Origin: an uncultured Oscillospiraceae bacterium
GTDB lineage: Bacteria > Bacillota > Clostridia > Oscillospirales > Acutalibacteraceae
DNA length: 64,000 nucleotides
NCBI GenBank assembly: GCA_900541565.1
Contig: UQKB01000004.1
Location: 62,001 to 126,000 of the forward strand
Direction: 5' to 3'
Shown: piece after piece, positions 21,837 through 52,264 of the stretch
Layout: every line of letters starts with the position of its first letter
How positions within the stretch are numbered: the first letter of the stretch is position 1
Notes under the pieces: model-generated
What the model was told of the DNA's origin: nothing
Databases searched by the model: none
Seen by the model: only the letters and a program-made list of their open reading frames with translations
Program-made: the position numbers and the translations under genes

Positions 21837-23123
21837 TTAATTTCTATTTACTGTCTTAAGTAAAACAGGGCGCAGCTGTGCGGCCAAATACAGGGAGCCG
21901 CAGCATACGACTGCGCCGTCGGCCCCGGCAAGCGAAAGCGCTTTTTCGATGGCCTGTGCAGGATCCTCCATTGCAACCGTATTTGGGAAACAGGCTTTTG
22001 CCTCCTGTGCAAGTGTTTGCGCAGGGAGTGCCCGTGGATTTTGCGGGGTTAGGGTGATCAGCGTGGAAAAAAGCCCGCTTATGTGGGAAAGGGATGAAAT
22101 ACTGTCCTTGTCGCGCAGCATGCCCATGATGCATACGGCTTTTTTATTGGGCAGATAGGTTTGGACGACATCGGCAAGCGCTGAAAGCCCGTCCGGATTG
22201 TGTGAACCATCAAGTAAAACAACGGGGCGGCGGCTTAAAAGTTCCATCCTTGCTGGCAAAAACACCTGTGCAAAGCCGTCTGCAATGGAGGAGGCGCTTA
22301 TGGGAATCCCGCTTTTTTGCAGGACCTGCAGTGTTTGCAAAGCAGTTTTGGCGTTTTTGATTTGATGGCGGCCGATCAACGGCAGCAGCAGGCGCTGCCC
22401 GCCGTAGTCCAGCGTGGTTCCTGCAATTGTGCTTTCCAAGGGTGACAGCGGGACATTGTCTGCATAAAAAAGCGTGTTTTTTTGCTCTGTTACCGCTTTT
22501 TCAATTACGGCGTTGACAGATGGCTGCTGCGGATAAAAAACAGTGTTGCCGTATGGCTTGATGATCCCGCTTTTTTCAAACGCAATCTCCTCCACCGTGC
22601 CGCCCAGGACAGCTGTGTGGTCCAGACCGATAGAGGTAATGACGGAACAAAGCGGCGTTTGGATTACGTTGGTAGAATCAAAGCGCCCGCCCAGGCCTGT
22701 TTCCAATACGACGATATCGCAGTTTTGGCGCTTGAAATATAAAAAAGCGATTGCGGTAATCAACTCAAATTCTGTAATGATTTCATTTTGTGTTGCCATT
22801 TGCTCAACAAACGGCAGCACTTGCTCGGTTATTTCGCTTAGCTGCGTTTCTGGGATCATACAGCCGTTGATCTGTATGCGCTCCCGAAAATCGACCACGT
22901 ACGGGGAAATAAACAAGCCCGTTTTGTAGCCTGCATTTTTCAGTACAGAGGAAAGCAGTGCGCAGACAGAGCCTTTGCCGTTTGTACCTGCCACATGGAC
23001 ACAGGAAAGTCCCTTGTGCGGATTTCCCAGAAGCTGCAAAAGCTTTGTGATCCGGTCAAGCCCGGGACGCGAACCAAAGCGCAGAAGAGAATTGATTTTA
23101 TCGATAGCCTGCCGATAGGTCAT
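21837..23123 (-). CDS. folC: Folylpolyglutamate synthase / dihydrofolate synthase
   Basis: FolC adds glutamate to dihydropteroate and to folates. The 428-residue Mur-ligase-superfamily protein has the P-loop GTNGKGSV (about 46-53), the SPYV segment, the QTPLCSVITSIGLDHT motif and the C-terminal LLDGSHNPDG signature. ATG at 23123 follows AAAGGACG. It is the last gene of the trmN6-rsmI-folC run, 37 nt after rsmI. Because it is a true Mur-family ligase, it is a useful comparison for the degenerate Mur-like protein at 45233. Confidence 0.95.
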   Translation of the reverse strand: MTYRQAIDKINSLLRFGSRPGLDRITKLLQLLGNPHKGLSCVHVAGTNGKGSVCALLSSVLKNAGYKTGLFISPYVVDFRERIQINGCMIPETQLSEITEQVLPFVEQMATQNEIITEFELITAIAFLYFKRQNCDIVVLETGLGGRFDSTNVIQTPLCSVITSIGLDHTAVLGGTVEEIAFEKSGIIKPYGNTVFYPQQPSVNAVIEKAVTEQKNTLFYADNVPLSPLESTIAGTTLDYGGQRLLLPLIGRHQIKNAKTALQTLQVLQKSGIPISASSIADGFAQVFLPARMELLSRRPVVLLDGSHNPDGLSALADVVQTYLPNKKAVCIMGMLRDKDSISSLSHISGLFSTLITLTPQNPRALPAQTLAQEAKACFPNTVAMEDPAQAIEKALSLAGADGAVVCCGSLYLAAQLRPVLLKTVNRN

Positions 23124-42572: not shown

Positions 42573-42954
42573 CCAGAGCGGGTTTCTAATACACATATAT
42601 ATAAGAATTATAAGAATGACGAAGCGGTTGTAACAGGGAGCGGCGGTCTGCCGTTTCTGAATGAGTTGGTAAACGGACGTATTACTGTTATGGGGTAATT
42701 GCTGGCTGACTTATGTTACAACCGTATTTTTATATGCAAAACGATATATGTAAAAAGCCGAGGCAAAAATTTCAGGTTTACCCCGTGCGTAAGATATGCT
42801 TATATTATATATGTAGATAGATGCAGGAAAAATATCCTGTAAAAAGTGAAGATATGGATAGTAGTATAAAAATGGTAGCGTCTTCCCGGCGGCCGGCAAG
42901 AGCGGCTGCCTATGCGGGAAAGATCCCAGTGAGTTGGAAGGGAGTTTGTCTGAT
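42573..42954 (+). other. Intergenic region between ftsL and the PBP gene
   Basis: About 382 nt. It holds a predicted three-way-junction-like structure (42625-42724) and a candidate promoter TTTACC (42777-42782), 18-nt spacer, TATATT (42801-42806). A short open frame from 42821 lacks a ribosome site and is not annotated. Confidence 0.45.
42625..42724 (+). ncRNA. Candidate structured leader RNA upstream of the PBP gene
   Basis: A perfect 11-bp closing helix (42625-42635 with 42714-42724) encloses 78 nt containing two smaller hairpins, GCGGC/GCCGT and ATTAC/GTAAT. A T-rich stretch follows. I recognise no known riboswitch family. Confidence 0.35.
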
Positions 42955-45204
42955 ATGTCAAAGGGCGCAAATACAAAGCTGGTTCACAGGTCTGTAATTA
43001 TTTTGGTATTAATTCTTGTGGTTGGTTTTGGCAGCGCAATATTACGCCTTACGCAGCTAAGCGTTGTGCAGGGGGAAGAGCTGCAACAGGCGGCTGTGGC
43101 GCAGCAGCTGAACGATACGACGATCAGTGCAAGGAGGGGTACCATTTATGACACCAACGGAAAGGTGCTTGCGCAAAGCGCTACCGTTTGGAAGGTGGTA
43201 TTGTCCCCGATCAATTTTGAATCTGACGAAGAACGCACGATCGTTTCCCAGGGTTTAGCAGAGATACTGGATTTGGAGCAGGCGGATATTTTTGAGAAAA
43301 CAAAGGAAAGGTCTTATTATGTGGTAGTGAAGCGGCAAATTGAAAGCGACGTCAGAGACGAAATCCTGAAATTTGTAGATGAGCTGGACGAAGAACACGA
43401 TATTACCGGTGTAATCGACCTGATTGAGGACTATAAACGGTACTATCCATATGGATCGTTTGCTTCTTCTCTGATCGGGTTTACAGGCAGCGACGACCAG
43501 GGCCTTTCCGGCATAGAATACCAGTATGATGAAAGCCTGACGGGAACACCCGGCCGGCTGGTAACGGCGAAGAATGCAAACGGGACGGAGATGCCGTTTG
43601 ATTATGAACAAAAGGTACAGGCAGAGGATGGAAACAGCCTGGTGCTGACGATTGACGAGACGATCCAGCATATTATGGAAAAGTATTTGCAAAAAGGTAT
43701 AGAAGAGCACAAGGTATATAATCGCGCGGTGGCGATTATGATGGAGGTCAATACGGGTGCTATTTTAGGAATGGCGGTAGAAGAGGGGTATGACTTAAAC
43801 GACCCGTTTACTTTAGTCAACCAGACGGCAAAGGATGAGATTGCGCAGCTGCCGGAGGATGAAAAGGCTGCGGCGGAAAGCGCTGCGCTTTCCAAGCAAT
43901 GGAGGAACAAGGCGGTCAGCGACACCTATTATCCCGGATCGGTATGGAAAATCATTACTTCTTCCATGGCGCTGGAGGAAAATCTGATTAACGACGAGTC
44001 GCGCTTTTACTGCACAGGATCTTACGTGCCGTTTGAGGGTGCATCGTCCATCAGCTGCCATAATACAGCAGGGCATGGCACACAGACCTTTGAAGAAGCG
44101 TTATGTAATTCCTGCAACCCGGCGTTTATGCAGATTGGTAATTTAATTGGCGCGACAAAATTTTGGGAATATTACCAGGCGTTTGGATTTTCTGAGAAAA
44201 CGGGGATCGACCTGCCGGGCGAATCGGAAGATATCTTTTTTAACGAGGACGGCTCGATGGGGCCCATGGATCTGGCGGTTGCATCGTTTGGGCAAAACTT
44301 TTCTGTAACGCCAATCCAGATGGTGACGGCTGTTTCTGCAGTTGCAAACGGCGGAAAGCTTTTGCAGCCCTATACGGTCAGGCAGATTCTTGACAGCGAC
44401 GGCAACGTGGTAGAGTCGACAGATACAACCGTGAAACGGCAGGTCATTTCGGAAGAGGTGTCTAAGGAGCTGTGCGCCATACTGGAGGAAAACGCGATTA
44501 GCGGTGCGGCGACAAACGGTTATGTACAGGGGTACAGGATTGCCGGAAAAACGGGAACGTCTGAAAAGCTGACCGATTCTAATGACGATGGAATAGAGGA
44601 CTATATTGCATCTTTCTGCGGTTTTGCCCCGGCGGATGATCCGCAGGTGGCGCTGCTTGTATACTTTGACACCCCCACTGGCGGACAGTATTACGGAAGC
44701 CAGGTTGCAGCACCCGTGTTTGCGGAAATTATGGCGGAGGTGCTGCCATATTTAGAGGTTGAAACACAGTATAACGAAGAAGAGCTGTCGATGCTGGATA
44801 CAACGGCGGGCAATTACGTGGGCGAGAGTGTGGAGCAGGCGCAGGCTGCGGCCGAGGAAGACGGATTTGTTTCTATTGTAAAGGGTGAAGGAACGACCGT
44901 TGCTGCACAGATTCCTGCGGCGGAGTCCAGAATTCCGCAGGGCGGTACGGTTGTGCTTTATACAGATGCAGCCGGCGTAGATGAGGATATGGTAGAGGTT
45001 CCCGATCTTACAGGGCTTTCCATATCAGATGTAAACAGTATAGCGTCACAGTATAATTTAAATATCAGCATTGCGGGCGCAAGCGCCGCAGGCGAGGGGA
45101 TTTCCCAATCGCAAAGCATTGCGCAGGGAACCATGGTAAGCCAGGGCACGGTGGTTATTGTGACGTTTGTGCAGGACAGCAGCTATGGAGAACCGATCTT
45201 TTAA
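42955..45204 (+). CDS. Class B penicillin-binding protein with two PASTA domains (FtsI/SpoVD type)
   Basis: A transpeptidase that crosslinks peptidoglycan at the septum or spore. ATG 42955 follows GGGAG; the TTG 42934 alternative has no site. In the 749-residue product: cytosolic tip, membrane helix (about 13-34), dimerisation domain with RRGTIYDTNG, transpeptidase with S329-V-W-K332, S386-C-N388 and K532-T-G534, then two PASTA repeats (about 608-670 and 679-739). PASTA repeats are shared by SpoVD, Bacillus PbpB and streptococcal PBP2x, so vegetative FtsI or sporulation SpoVD are both possible; being the only PBP in the dcw cluster favours FtsI. Confidence 0.92.
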   Translation: MSKGANTKLVHRSVIILVLILVVGFGSAILRLTQLSVVQGEELQQAAVAQQLNDTTISARRGTIYDTNGKVLAQSATVWKVVLSPINFESDEERTIVSQGLAEILDLEQADIFEKTKERSYYVVVKRQIESDVRDEILKFVDELDEEHDITGVIDLIEDYKRYYPYGSFASSLIGFTGSDDQGLSGIEYQYDESLTGTPGRLVTAKNANGTEMPFDYEQKVQAEDGNSLVLTIDETIQHIMEKYLQKGIEEHKVYNRAVAIMMEVNTGAILGMAVEEGYDLNDPFTLVNQTAKDEIAQLPEDEKAAAESAALSKQWRNKAVSDTYYPGSVWKIITSSMALEENLINDESRFYCTGSYVPFEGASSISCHNTAGHGTQTFEEALCNSCNPAFMQIGNLIGATKFWEYYQAFGFSEKTGIDLPGESEDIFFNEDGSMGPMDLAVASFGQNFSVTPIQMVTAVSAVANGGKLLQPYTVRQILDSDGNVVESTDTTVKRQVISEEVSKELCAILEENAISGAATNGYVQGYRIAGKTGTSEKLTDSNDDGIEDYIASFCGFAPADDPQVALLVYFDTPTGGQYYGSQVAAPVFAEIMAEVLPYLEVETQYNEEELSMLDTTAGNYVGESVEQAQAAAEEDGFVSIVKGEGTTVAAQIPAAESRIPQGGTVVLYTDAAGVDEDMVEVPDLTGLSISDVNSIASQYNLNISIAGASAAGEGISQSQSIAQGTMVSQGTVVIVTFVQDSSYGEPIF

Positions 45205-45232
45205 TTTTAGATAAATAAAGGCAGGGAAAGCG

Positions 45233-45820
45233 ATGAAGAGCAAAAAATCAAGCGGCGGCACACCCCCGTACGGACAGATAACGGCGGTGGGAAGGCAGCC
45301 ATTGGTGGAACATTCCTTAAAAGCGTTGGAGCATGTGCTTGCAGAGGCAGGAAAGCGTGTAACGGCAAAAAGTATGGCTGTTTATACGGAGCACCCCTAC
45401 TGCGTTGGAAGTATTACCTTTGCGGCGGGACAGCGTGCGGTCAATACGGTGTTGTTTACAGATGAAAGCGCCTGCCCATATGAGCAGCAGTGGCTGCAGA
45501 CATGTACTACGCTGGTCCTTCCCTATGACGAGATGAGAAAACAGCTGCTGGAAGAAAAGGAAAAAGAGAAAATTGTAGAATATTCCCACAATGACGACCG
45601 AGCGGACCTTGTTGCAAAGAATATAACGCAAACGGCGGAGCATATAAATTTTGAGCTTGTAGGCACGGGACTGATTGGCAGGATTAAGCTAAAAGAGGGT
45701 TGCGGCCTTTCAGTTGAAAATGCGCTTGCACTTGCAGGCGCGCTGCTTGCTTCGGATATTGCGCTAAAAGAGATAGCAAACGGGCTGAGCACCCTTGAAA
45801 GTTTGGCGGCCTTTGCATAA
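45233..45820 (+). CDS. Mur-ligase-like protein lacking the ATP-binding loop (probable pseudo-enzyme)
   Basis: ATG 45233 follows CAGGGAAAG; 195 residues. Residues 15-48 (ITAVGRQPLVEH ... AEAGKRVTAKS) line up with the start of a Mur ligase central domain, but the GTNGKTT phosphate loop is replaced by AVGRQPL. Residues 70-90 (NTVLFTDESACPYEQQWL) resemble the NxDDPY strand, and residues 112-192 (SHNDDRADLVAKNI ... LIGRIKLKEGCGLSVENALALAGALLASDIALKEIANGLSTLESL) match the MurE/MurF segment ending in the NALAA helix. The C-terminal ligase domain is missing. It lies where murE/murF normally sits, between the PBP and mraY, with normal ribosome sites and no frameshift. ATP-dependent ligase activity is not expected. 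Confidence 0.65.
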   Translation: MKSKKSSGGTPPYGQITAVGRQPLVEHSLKALEHVLAEAGKRVTAKSMAVYTEHPYCVGSITFAAGQRAVNTVLFTDESACPYEQQWLQTCTTLVLPYDEMRKQLLEEKEKEKIVEYSHNDDRADLVAKNITQTAEHINFELVGTGLIGRIKLKEGCGLSVENALALAGALLASDIALKEIANGLSTLESLAAFA

Positions 45821-45851: not shown

Positions 45852-46871
45852 ATGAACGTTGGTTGGATACTGGGAAGTGCGGTAGTTTCGTTTGCGATTG
45901 CCGCAATTTTAGGAAAATGGCTTGTACCTTTTTTACAAAAGCTGAAATATGGTCAGACGATTTTAGATATTGGGCCAAAATGGCATAAAGGAAAGCAGGG
46001 TACACCGACCATGGGCGGTTTGATGTTTGTGGCCAGTACCATTGTGACGTCTGTTGCCGGTGTTTTGCTTTGCAGCGCGTTTGCTTCGGGAGAGGATCCC
46101 GTATTTACACAGGTGACGCTTTCTTTTAACAAGGTGTTTGCGGGCCTTGCCATGGCGGCGGCATTTGGCGCAATTGGCTTTTTTGACGATTATATCAAGG
46201 TTGTGAAGAAGCGGAATTTGGGCCTTACGGCAAAGCAAAAGCTGATTTTGCAGTTTGGCGTTGCGGCTGCGTATTTGTTTACGTTGTCTTTAACAGGCGT
46301 TACTTCTGAAACACTGATCCCCTTTGTTGGGCCGGTGGATCTGGGATGGCTTTACTGGATATTGTCTGCGGTGCTGATTGTGGGCGTTGTAAACGCCGTT
46401 AACCTTTCAGACGGGATAGACGGGCTGGTAGGATCTATGACCTTTTTTGCCGCGCTTGCTTTTATGCTAATTGCCTCTACCTTGGTTTCGCAGGGGATTG
46501 GGATTATGTCTGCGGCTCTGGCGGGCGGATGCCTTGGCTTTTTGATCTGGAATTTTCATCCGGCAAAGGTTTTTATGGGCGATACGGGTTCCTTGTATCT
46601 TGGAGGTTTTTTATGCGCGTTGGCGTTTGGAATGAATATGCCGATTATCTTAATCCCCATTGCGCTTGTATATTTGCTTGAGATGCTTTCGGTCGTTTTG
46701 CAGGTTGTGTATTTTAAAGCGACAAAAGGAAAAAGGCTGTTTAAAATGAGCCCGATCCACCACCATTTTGAAATGTGTGGATGGTCGGAAGTGAAAATTG
46801 TAGTTGTGTTCAGCCTGGCGACGGCGTTATGCGGCGTGTTGGCACTTGCGTTGGTAATGACGGGCTTTTAA
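45852..46871 (+). CDS. mraY: Phospho-N-acetylmuramoyl-pentapeptide-transferase
   Basis: MraY attaches phospho-MurNAc-pentapeptide to undecaprenyl phosphate to form lipid I. ATG 45852 lies after GGAGG; 339 residues with about ten membrane helices. Catalytic aspartates are in FFDDYIKV (about 112-119) and NLSDGIDGL, and the HHHFE motif is near 310. Uridyl-binding TMGG near 48. Follows the Mur-like gene by 31 nt. Confidence 0.96.
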   Translation: MNVGWILGSAVVSFAIAAILGKWLVPFLQKLKYGQTILDIGPKWHKGKQGTPTMGGLMFVASTIVTSVAGVLLCSAFASGEDPVFTQVTLSFNKVFAGLAMAAAFGAIGFFDDYIKVVKKRNLGLTAKQKLILQFGVAAAYLFTLSLTGVTSETLIPFVGPVDLGWLYWILSAVLIVGVVNAVNLSDGIDGLVGSMTFFAALAFMLIASTLVSQGIGIMSAALAGGCLGFLIWNFHPAKVFMGDTGSLYLGGFLCALAFGMNMPIILIPIALVYLLEMLSVVLQVVYFKATKGKRLFKMSPIHHHFEMCGWSEVKIVVVFSLATALCGVLALALVMTGF

Positions 46872-46918
46872 AATAGGGCTGGCGCGCGTTTTATGTATGA
46901 CTGTATGGTGGTGGAAAG

Positions 46919-48187
46919 ATGGATAGAAAATATCCCCTAAGATACGAGGCGGAGCTTAAACGGAAAGCACAGGAAGCATATAATAGAAGGCGCGGCTACT
47001 ATGCCTCTGTAGCTGCGCACGAAAAAACGGCGGATACAAAACGCCGCGGTATACGGAAAAAGCTCAAGCTGTTTTCGGTACGCGCCGGATTGGATATGCC
47101 TTTTTTACTTTTAATCTTGATTTTGCTTGTTATTGGGATTATTATGATGTTTTCCGCAAGCTATCCGGTTGCTTATTTTACCAACGGAGATAGTTACCTG
47201 TATTTAAAAAGACAGGTAATTTTTGCAGTGATTGGCGTTGCTGCAATGCTTGCTATTTCTTTTTTTGATTATCATCACTTCCATAAGCTGGCGGTATGGG
47301 TTTTGGCCCTTGCGTTTTTACTTTTGGTTGTTGTGCTGTTTATCCCGTCTGAAACGGGTGTGCACCGATGGATTGACCTGGGCATAGCAAGTTTTCAGGC
47401 GTCTGAGCTGATGAAGTTTGCGTTGATTTTGTTTTTTGCCCATTGGGGCTCTGTGTATTTTTATAAGATGGAAACATTTAAATACGGTGTTCTACCGGCA
47501 ATTGTAATCCTTGTTCCTACGGTGGTGCTGTTGCTGTTGGAGCCGCATTATTCCGGTATTGTTATTGTAACGCTTTTAACGGCGCTGATGATGTATATAT
47601 CGGGCGTGAAGGGAAAGTGGTTTTTGTTTGCGGGTGCCGGCATACTGGTTATTTTTCTTATCATGTCGGCCACCGGGCTGCTTTCTTATGCGATGGAGCG
47701 TATGGAAGGCTGGGGACAGGCGCTGGAATACACAACGCCTGAAATGTGGCAGACCACATGGCAGACCAGGAATTCGATGTATGCGATTGGCTCAGGCGGG
47801 CTGATGGGTCTGGGGTTAGGGCAATCCAGGCAAAAGTATCTGTACCTGCCGGAACCGCAAAACGACTTTATCTTTGCGATTGTCTGTGAAGAGCTGGGGT
47901 TGATCGGCGCGGTGATTATTCTTGCAATTTTCGGACTGCTTGTATGGCGCGGGATTACCATATCGATGCGTGCGAAAGATAAGTTCGGTACACTTTTGGG
48001 TGTGGGCCTGACCGCACAAATTGGGCTGCAGGTAATTTTGAATATTCTGGTTATTACCGATTTGCTTCCAAACACCGGGATCAGCCTGCCGTTTTTCAGC
48101 TCAGGCGGAAGCTCGCTTGTCATGCTGTTGGCGCAGATGGGGATTGTGCTTTCGATTTCAAGGACATCCAATATTAATAAAGCATAA
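46919..48187 (+). CDS. ftsW: SEDS-family septal peptidoglycan polymerase
   Basis: FtsW polymerises lipid II at the septum with its partner PBP. The 422-residue protein has a long basic cytosolic N-terminus (1-57) before ten membrane helices. The conserved GVHRWIDLGIASFQASELMKF motif holds the essential aspartate (near 145), and the C-terminal PNTGISLPFFSSGGSS signature is intact. murD, which usually lies between mraY and ftsW, is absent; the gap is only 47 nt. Confidence 0.94.
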   Translation: MDRKYPLRYEAELKRKAQEAYNRRRGYYASVAAHEKTADTKRRGIRKKLKLFSVRAGLDMPFLLLILILLVIGIIMMFSASYPVAYFTNGDSYLYLKRQVIFAVIGVAAMLAISFFDYHHFHKLAVWVLALAFLLLVVVLFIPSETGVHRWIDLGIASFQASELMKFALILFFAHWGSVYFYKMETFKYGVLPAIVILVPTVVLLLLEPHYSGIVIVTLLTALMMYISGVKGKWFLFAGAGILVIFLIMSATGLLSYAMERMEGWGQALEYTTPEMWQTTWQTRNSMYAIGSGGLMGLGLGQSRQKYLYLPEPQNDFIFAIVCEELGLIGAVIILAIFGLLVWRGITISMRAKDKFGTLLGVGLTAQIGLQVILNILVITDLLPNTGISLPFFSSGGSSLVMLLAQMGIVLSISRTSNINKA

Positions 48188-50791: not shown

Positions 50792-52264
50792 ATGGAAAAC
50801 AAGAACAAAGGCAGCAATCAAAATCAGCAAAACAAGCGGATGTCTGAACAAAGGCCGGGCATGCAAAATGGCAGCCAGAAGATGCGCAATGCAAAAAGGC
50901 CGACAGGCGGAAGAAGGCCTGCCGCAGCCCCGGGCAATAAGCGGACTGCCCCGGAAAAAAGTGCAGGGCGGCCCTTTTCTGAGGAAAAACAAAAAAAACA
51001 ACAGACAAAGCGCAGCCCCGCTATAAAAACGGTGCAAAAGGCCGAGGCAAAATCAACGCGTATGCCCCAACGCGGCGGTAAGAAGGTAGGTGACGCGGCA
51101 AGAAGAGCCAAGAGCGGCCCTGCAAGAAAGACGTATACAGAGGAGCCGATTGTCCGGCGGGACGATTACGGCGACGGCTTTTACACAGATGAAGTCGCTA
51201 TGAAGCAAAATGCCGCCATGCAGGCCGAGGAAGAGGCAAGGATCCAGGAGGAGCTCAGCAGAGAGCCATTTTCCAGAAAAACCAGAAAGGTGATTAACTT
51301 TGCCGTTTGCGGCGCGATCCTGCTGGTGATCCTGATCGTAGGCGTTGTGCTTTCACTGACGGTATTTTTTAAATCAGAACAGTTTGAGGTGGAAGGATCT
51401 GCGCATTACAGCAACCAGGAGATTATTGATGCAAGCGGTCTGACGCTGGGGGAAAATCTGTTTTTAAGTGATAAAAAAGCAGGGGAAGAGAAGATCAAGC
51501 AGACGCTCCCGTATGTGGAAGAGGCGAAAATTGACATACGAATCCCCGATACGATGGTCATACATATTACAGAGGCGCAACCGGCGTATGTGATTGCGGA
51601 AGGGGAAGAATTTGTGGTGATTTCCTCTGAGGGGAGAGTGCTGGAGCGAATCAGTAAAAATACATATGACGCGCCGGTGATCGAAGGCTGTACGCTGGAG
51701 AAGGCCGAGGTGGGAAACACGGCCCAGGTGAAGAATAAGAATATTATGCCGATCTTAAACGAGATCACCAAGGCCTTACAAAAAAATGAATTTAACGGCA
51801 TACGGGAAATTGATGTTTCGAACACGGCCAATATTAAGTTAAATTATGCAGACAGGATCCAGATTGTTCTGGGAATGCCAGAGGATATTGATTATAAAAT
51901 CCGCACGGCGCAGACGATTATTGACCAGAAGCTTGCCCAGACCGATATGGGCGTTTTAGATGTTTCGGCCTGCAATGGCAGCAAAAAGGCATCATATTAC
52001 AACCCGGACAATACGCTGTATGCCACCGAGCCTTCTACCGAGCCCACAACCGCCGCCACCGAGCCTGTGACAGATTATACCTGGCAGGACAGCGGCGATG
52101 GATATACCGACGGCTATACCGACGGCTATACTGACGAAAGCTATTACGATGACGGTTATTCTGACGACAGCTATGCTGACGATGGTTATTATTATGACGA
52201 CGGCTACTATTACGATGGTTATGCCGACGGGACAGACGGGTATGATGATGGGGTATATGCCTGA
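50792..52264 (+). CDS. DivIB/FtsQ-like division protein with long basic head and acidic tail
   Basis: ATG 50792 follows TAAGGA. Of 490 residues, 1-165 are a low-complexity, Lys/Arg/Gln-rich cytosolic segment, 167-193 a membrane helix, 195-265 a POTRA domain (FEVEGSAHYSNQEIIDASG), then the FtsQ beta domain, and 425-490 a tail rich in Tyr, Asp and Gly with repeats such as YTDGYTDGYTDE. Ordinary DivIB is about 260-300 residues. The POTRA-containing core scaffolds FtsL/FtsB at the septum; the extra ends are unexplained. Confidence 0.88.
   Translation: MENKNKGSNQNQQNKRMSEQRPGMQNGSQKMRNAKRPTGGRRPAAAPGNKRTAPEKSAGRPFSEEKQKKQQTKRSPAIKTVQKAEAKSTRMPQRGGKKVGDAARRAKSGPARKTYTEEPIVRRDDYGDGFYTDEVAMKQNAAMQAEEEARIQEELSREPFSRKTRKVINFAVCGAILLVILIVGVVLSLTVFFKSEQFEVEGSAHYSNQEIIDASGLTLGENLFLSDKKAGEEKIKQTLPYVEEAKIDIRIPDTMVIHITEAQPAYVIAEGEEFVVISSEGRVLERISKNTYDAPVIEGCTLEKAEVGNTAQVKNKNIMPILNEITKALQKNEFNGIREIDVSNTANIKLNYADRIQIVLGMPEDIDYKIRTAQTIIDQKLAQTDMGVLDVSACNGSKKASYYNPDNTLYATEPSTEPTTAATEPVTDYTWQDSGDGYTDGYTDGYTDESYYDDGYSDDSYADDGYYYDDGYYYDGYADGTDGYDDGVYA
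52093..52240 (+). repeat. Low-complexity repeat encoding a Tyr-Asp-Gly tail of the DivIB-like protein
   Basis: Twelve-base units first (Tyr-Thr-Asp-Gly three times), grading into irregular Tyr/Asp/Gly codons up to the end of the gene. Confidence 0.7.

Follow-up and report, generated by a model that had tools for sequence, protein, structure and literature searches.

What is a Mur-ligase-like protein of 195 residues doing between a PBP gene and mraY, and is it a relic in decay or a protein retained for a job? The question is raised by one reading frame in a stretch of 64,000 nucleotides, called the window here. The features of the locus are as follows.

42934..45204, + strand: upstream PBP gene (transpeptidase, PBP dimer and 2 PASTA stretches, by Pfam), one marker of the slot
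45223..45226, + strand: ribosome-site-like AGGG, 6 bases ahead of the ATG (direct reading)
45233..45820, + strand: stubA protein, 195 aa, a putative MurE-derived central-domain pseudoenzyme (profile, alignment and model evidence)
45269..45304, + strand: residues 13-24 (YGQITAVGRQPL), the predicted opening strand of the domain and the place at which the ATP loop is lost (model and alignment)
45560..45802, + strand: residues 110-190, the best conserved part, with YS, AD..AKNI, FEL.G.GLIGRI and two predicted C-terminal helices (alignment and model)
45852..46871, + strand: mraY, the downstream marker of the slot

The reading frame at 45233-45820 is real and intact, and is packed tightly with the PBP gene on one side and mraY on the other. 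Together with the AGGG before the ATG, this confirms what an earlier note on this DNA had described, an in-frame Mur-ligase-like frame in this position. Pfam recognised the PBP (transpeptidase, dimer and PASTA), FtsW and MurG in the window. As a single query, the window protein returned only two near-copies (92 and 99% identical) in a protein search and only noise in a PDB sequence search. The two near-copies alone would have suggested an orphan, and it was the scan of loci through MraY that revealed the family, named stubA here. Its small set leaves out the full-length proteins at L074, L076, L077 and L080, and also ORFs at L009, L021 and L030 that looked by eye like pieces of a PBP. Pfam and NCBIfam profiles did not by themselves establish kinship with Mur ligases: PF08245 gave the window protein 16 bits, below the curated cut-off of 24, and at E<=1 matched 1 of the 20 members of stubA set A1, the window protein itself, whereas a model of the full-length MurE that occupies the same slot in other genomes gave 66.1 bits. 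Protein P0002 and the window protein are identical over their last 124 residues; the 15 differences between them all fall in residues 1-71 (45233-45445), a pattern that may reflect tight constraint on the late half or else a break by recombination.

The window protein carries AVGRQPL at the place of the ATP loop and does not match the Mur-type pattern GxxGK[TS]. The same pattern is absent from all 66 stubA rows and from all 12 rows of a second family, stubB, described below, and is present in 23/23 slot-type MurE and in all 16 members of a second MurE set (14 relocated MurE, 11 from stubA genomes and 3 from empty-slot genomes, plus L114 and L118, which are not counted as relocated). A stray GK[TS] was seen in the first 80 residues of 4 stubA rows, and in three of them (L060, L168 and L184) it lies, as placed by eye, just past the expected first strand. 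The alignment of the window protein spans only positions 134-361 of a MurE of 523 residues. By length and alignment, the stubs lack the catalytic middle as well as the two outer domains, and the N-terminal UDP-binding domain and the C-terminal domain of MurE were not found in the 195 residues of the window protein. Thus, the replaced ATP loop and the missing middle and C-terminal domain, as first noticed in the earlier note, are borne out by pattern, length and alignment, and the Mur-type ATP site is lost in the stubs. Compared with the dcw-cluster MurE of the same order, of about 490 residues, the stub has fewer than 200 and is without the N- and C-terminal domains, the ATP loop, the catalytic middle and the DNPR region.

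What has been retained is the fold of the central domain, according to structure prediction. The predicted model of the window protein (AF2; Foldseek, VIA) has a Mur-ligase central-domain fold, in agreement with the kinship proposed from its motifs, and a confident predicted model of a second, distant member has the same fold. In the model the first strand comprises residues 13-20, which align with the MurE strand and loop GVTGTNGKTT. Across 62 aligned stubA members D125 and R150 are invariant, and conservation peaks in the domain's late half (YS, AD..AKN, GRV and the two helices), not on the ATP side. The motifs YS, AD..AKNI and GRV and the final two helices are shared with the dcw-cluster MurE, as are the position right after the PBP gene and the central-domain fold.

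According to profile scores, the nearest parent is the MurE of the slot: against the 66.1 bits of the slot-type model, the window protein scored 25.2 bits with the relocated-MurE set and 24.2 with MurF. Because 20 of the 23 sequences in the slot-type model had been recruited with the stub profile, the test was repeated as a control with only the three slot MurE found via MraY. In this control slot MurE beat all 20 random relocated-MurE models in each of the 66 stubA rows (61 distinct sequences, with second copies L103, L137, L142, L167 and L179), and stood above all MurF models in 29 of the 66, the window protein included; many of the fast-evolving members are matched about as well by MurF as by MurE. 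A tree of the segment shared by stubs, MurE and MurF, without MurC (74 rows, 86 columns), places the stubs as one group (99/89) within slot-type MurE, with most relocated MurE in a separate clade (96/84) and MurF apart; the stub clade also took in one badly cut MurF row, L092, and relocated L087 and L098 had been dropped before the tree was built. At the 20 slot-type MurE loci (L108-L132) a PBP reading frame was seen at 19 at first and at all 20 on the pass made for the PBP tree. Of the suggested murE or murF origin, the MurE half stands on profile scores, control, tree and alignment. MurF is set aside as parent of the window protein, since its profile scores are lower and the stubs go with MurE in the tree. 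These comparisons thus indicate that the window protein descends from slot MurE.

Short-form matches were found in 39/61 genomes of the genus of G003, 11/60 of the genus of G012 and 13/150 of the family of G016. Among 394 genomes taken across the order there were at least 6 with stubA and at least 4 with stubB, and across the phylum, at the strict threshold of E<=1e-12, 1 of 398. The slot itself is well kept: the PBP gene precedes the stub at 50 of 52 stubA loci, and mraY follows it at 50, the four misses being near a sequence end. Orthologues at the same locus in related genomes, which the earlier note had proposed to look for, are thus present. With the MraY tree (81 rows), a different aspect is displayed. 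Rows without stub or slot MurE number 55, including L001, L002 and L004, the nearest to the window, so that in many relatives the stub is dispensable or replaceable. The stub state requires 9 changes on this tree, at least 8 of them forced, and a branch with 100/99 support parts four slot-MurE/MurF rows from the 77 others. Early origin followed by repeated loss is the simplest reading of the history of stubA.

A different protein of 182-185 aa occupies the PBP-mraY slot at L208, L209 and L210. Its profile gathers 376 proteins, and among the 120 listed the only one named by its source, P0144, is a 'hypothetical protein'. Copies of stubB close to full length are present in 38 of the 41 genomes of its genus, with one further short partial match, and PBP and mraY flank it at all 12 loci examined. 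With the nearest MurE it shares 37% identity (E=4e-23); Pfam at E<=0.1 matched nothing in three stubB members. In a tree of 101 rows the stubA sequences group as a single clade (97/97) among MurE of the slot type; stubB forms a clade as well (100/100), nested within MurE from its own family (98/85, 97/93, 100/98). In a PBP tree of 118 loci, made by a quick method with SH-aLRT support only, all 53 stubA and empty-slot rows fall on one side (SH-aLRT 100), and stubB is placed among genomes with full MurE at the slot (97, 93). An AU test did not reject a common clade of the two stub families (p=0.28, lnL 17.3 worse), and the case for two origins is drawn from the nesting in the 101-row tree and from the PBP tree. 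On that nesting, stubA and stubB are likely two independent reductions of MurE.

Mur-ligase matches above the family cut-off were found in all 15 stubA genomes searched, and full-length relocated-type MurE with the ATP loop in 13 of them. In G014 the contig ends within the MurE piece, which does not match the ATP-loop pattern, and no MurE was identified among the five matches of G008. At several relocated loci of stubA genomes MurE adjoins MurF. For stubB, Mur ligases scored above the cut-off in 8/8 genomes searched, and full-length MurE with the ATP loop was present in all seven fetched. When the window was searched by tblastn with sets of MurE and of MurF, the best five matches for each set fell only on the stub and on one other ORF (21837-23123, - strand), which we take to be FolC-like. 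Judging from its relatives, the window organism probably has its working MurE elsewhere in the genome.

Changed peptide chemistry was considered as an explanation and rejected, as the DNPR/DNSR pattern contains no consistent switch: DNPR was found in 23/23 slot-type MurE and in one MurE of each of the seven fetched stubB genomes, and DNSR in 13 of 14 rows of relocated MurE (loci L083-L100) as well as in L265 and L266. Two neighbouring MurE-like genes, with DNPR and with DDPG or EDSG, were seen in the stubB genomes L260, L261, L262 and L264.

The same piece, kept in the same place and under selection in relatives (see below), and a similar piece in another lineage, indicate that the stub probably serves some purpose besides catalysis, which it has lost the parts for. 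Both families stay between PBP and mraY, and holding precursor synthesis at the membrane step is for this reason the most likely job. It is proposed that the old MurE of the dcw cluster was reduced to its central domain, of under 200 residues, as catalysis shifted to a different full-length MurE elsewhere; the kept piece would carry a MurE binding surface required at this point of the pathway, and would dock cytosolic precursor enzymes (MurG, or else the replacement MurE or MurF) to MraY or to the adjacent PBP/FtsW machinery, so that precursor synthesis is held near the membrane after catalysis has moved. That the stub is a MurE-derived pseudoenzyme kept as such a docking subunit at MraY is the reading preferred here, with a confidence slightly short of even; docking is suggested by gene location and the retained predicted fold. 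Passages of PMC6420597 report that in other bacteria MurG binds MurE-MurF and that two-hybrid data link MraY with MurF and MurG, and these links make docking plausible. According to the same passages, it has been argued on localisation, two-hybrid and binding data whether Mur ligases act as a membrane-bound assembly. The MurG scaffold of Bordetella, as treated in those passages, shares with the stub the idea that Mur ligases are held near the membrane. MurG, however, is an active glycosyltransferase, whereas the stub has lost its ATP site. A vital role is counted against, since many relatives live without the stub.

A wider proposal, held a little more tentatively still, is that the MurE central domain does a second job, apart from catalysis, at the MraY/PBP end of the pathway, and that, when catalysis passed to another MurE, it was left as a free single-domain protein at least twice independently in this order. 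If true, the stubs lay bare a hidden docking function, one that ordinary MurE enzymes may share. As a natural protein that has kept nothing but a non-catalytic part of MurE, still in the old slot and with probably two origins, the stub would open the question of Mur assembly to direct test: the proteins that bind it should show where docking takes place. It also illustrates how an essential enzyme can give way to another and yet leave part of the old copy in place. Pseudoenzymes as such, and the MurE-like PAP11 of the plastid RNA polymerase, are already known; no published description of such a stub family was found in open-licence PMC text.

Inactive paralogues often act as regulatory partners, and the stub might likewise be an inactive subunit that tunes the relocated MurE or MurF rather than a membrane tether. 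The stub retains the enzyme's own fold, and the 13 of 15 stubA genomes with full-length MurE elsewhere would offer a partner to tune. The retained fragment, however, can bind substrate and ATP with neither of the parts that do so in MurE, both being absent, and gene position suggests MraY and PBP rather than the unlinked murE and murF. Such a regulatory role is accordingly considered unlikely, although it is the strongest of the alternatives to docking. A role outside the precursor pathway altogether, as in PAP11, is improbable. Plastid RNA polymerase chains of the PAP11 kind are among the fold matches, and PAP11, which acts in transcription within the chloroplast RNA polymerase, is, like the stub, derived from MurE and serves as a subunit of another complex. 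It is, however, a long chain of 768 residues, whereas the stub is a single domain still in the cell-wall cluster, and the constant order PBP-stub-mraY in two families favours the cell wall.

A further alternative, a decaying murE relic in frame by chance, has some observations on its side: the stub is absent from many relatives, the members examined are far shorter than MurE and diverge fast, and their dN/dS exceeds that of mraY. By NG86, 17 of 122 pairs with >=60% identity were unsaturated, and these pairs, from relatives rather than the window's own species, gave a median dN/dS of 0.147 for stubA. In 15 of the 17 pairs the same comparison gave 0.048 for mraY and 0.056 for PBP, so that the stubA value is about 3 times that of mraY. 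Values for the closest stubA pairs are 0.02-0.16 (L136/L137, dS 1.22 and dN 0.029; L133/L135, dS 0.50 and dN 0.046; L164/L165, dS 0.50 and dN 0.082), and these low ratios, with D125 and R150 invariant in 62 members, speak against decay, as do retention in 39/61 genomes of one genus and the confident predicted fold of two distant members. Moreover, no decaying trace of MurE or stub was found at E<=0.05 in 22 gaps, namely 18 from the 55 empty-slot rows and 4 between stub and mraY. StubB is likewise under purifying selection (median 0.32 over 65 pairs; closest pairs 0.16-0.20). The relic reading, one of the two left open in the earlier note, is consequently abandoned as very unlikely. The other, a pseudo-enzyme with a new role, is supported by the same-slot orthologues and low dN/dS: with catalytic parts lost and purifying selection evident in the relatives' DNA, the protein reads as a pseudoenzyme, and the scaffold suggested in the earlier note as an example of such a role would fit, at the strength given above for docking. 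That the ORF is a mere spacer for coupling transcription or translation of PBP and mraY, as its tight spacing and its own ribosome-site-like sequence might suggest, is scarcely credible against purifying selection on the protein, a conserved predicted fold and relatives that manage with a geneless gap.

Several minor observations concern the surroundings of the slot. In many bacteria murD sits between mraY and ftsW; in the window the interval 46871-46919 between these genes contains no gene. At L050 two tandem ORFs of 757 and 749 aa lie 5223 to 415 bases before mraY, and were called PBP by a KTGT-type motif only. Further downstream in the window, the ORF at 50792-52264 (+ strand), ftsQ by position, has a tail rich in Tyr, Asp and Gly (TDGYTDG, DDGYYYDDGYYYDG).
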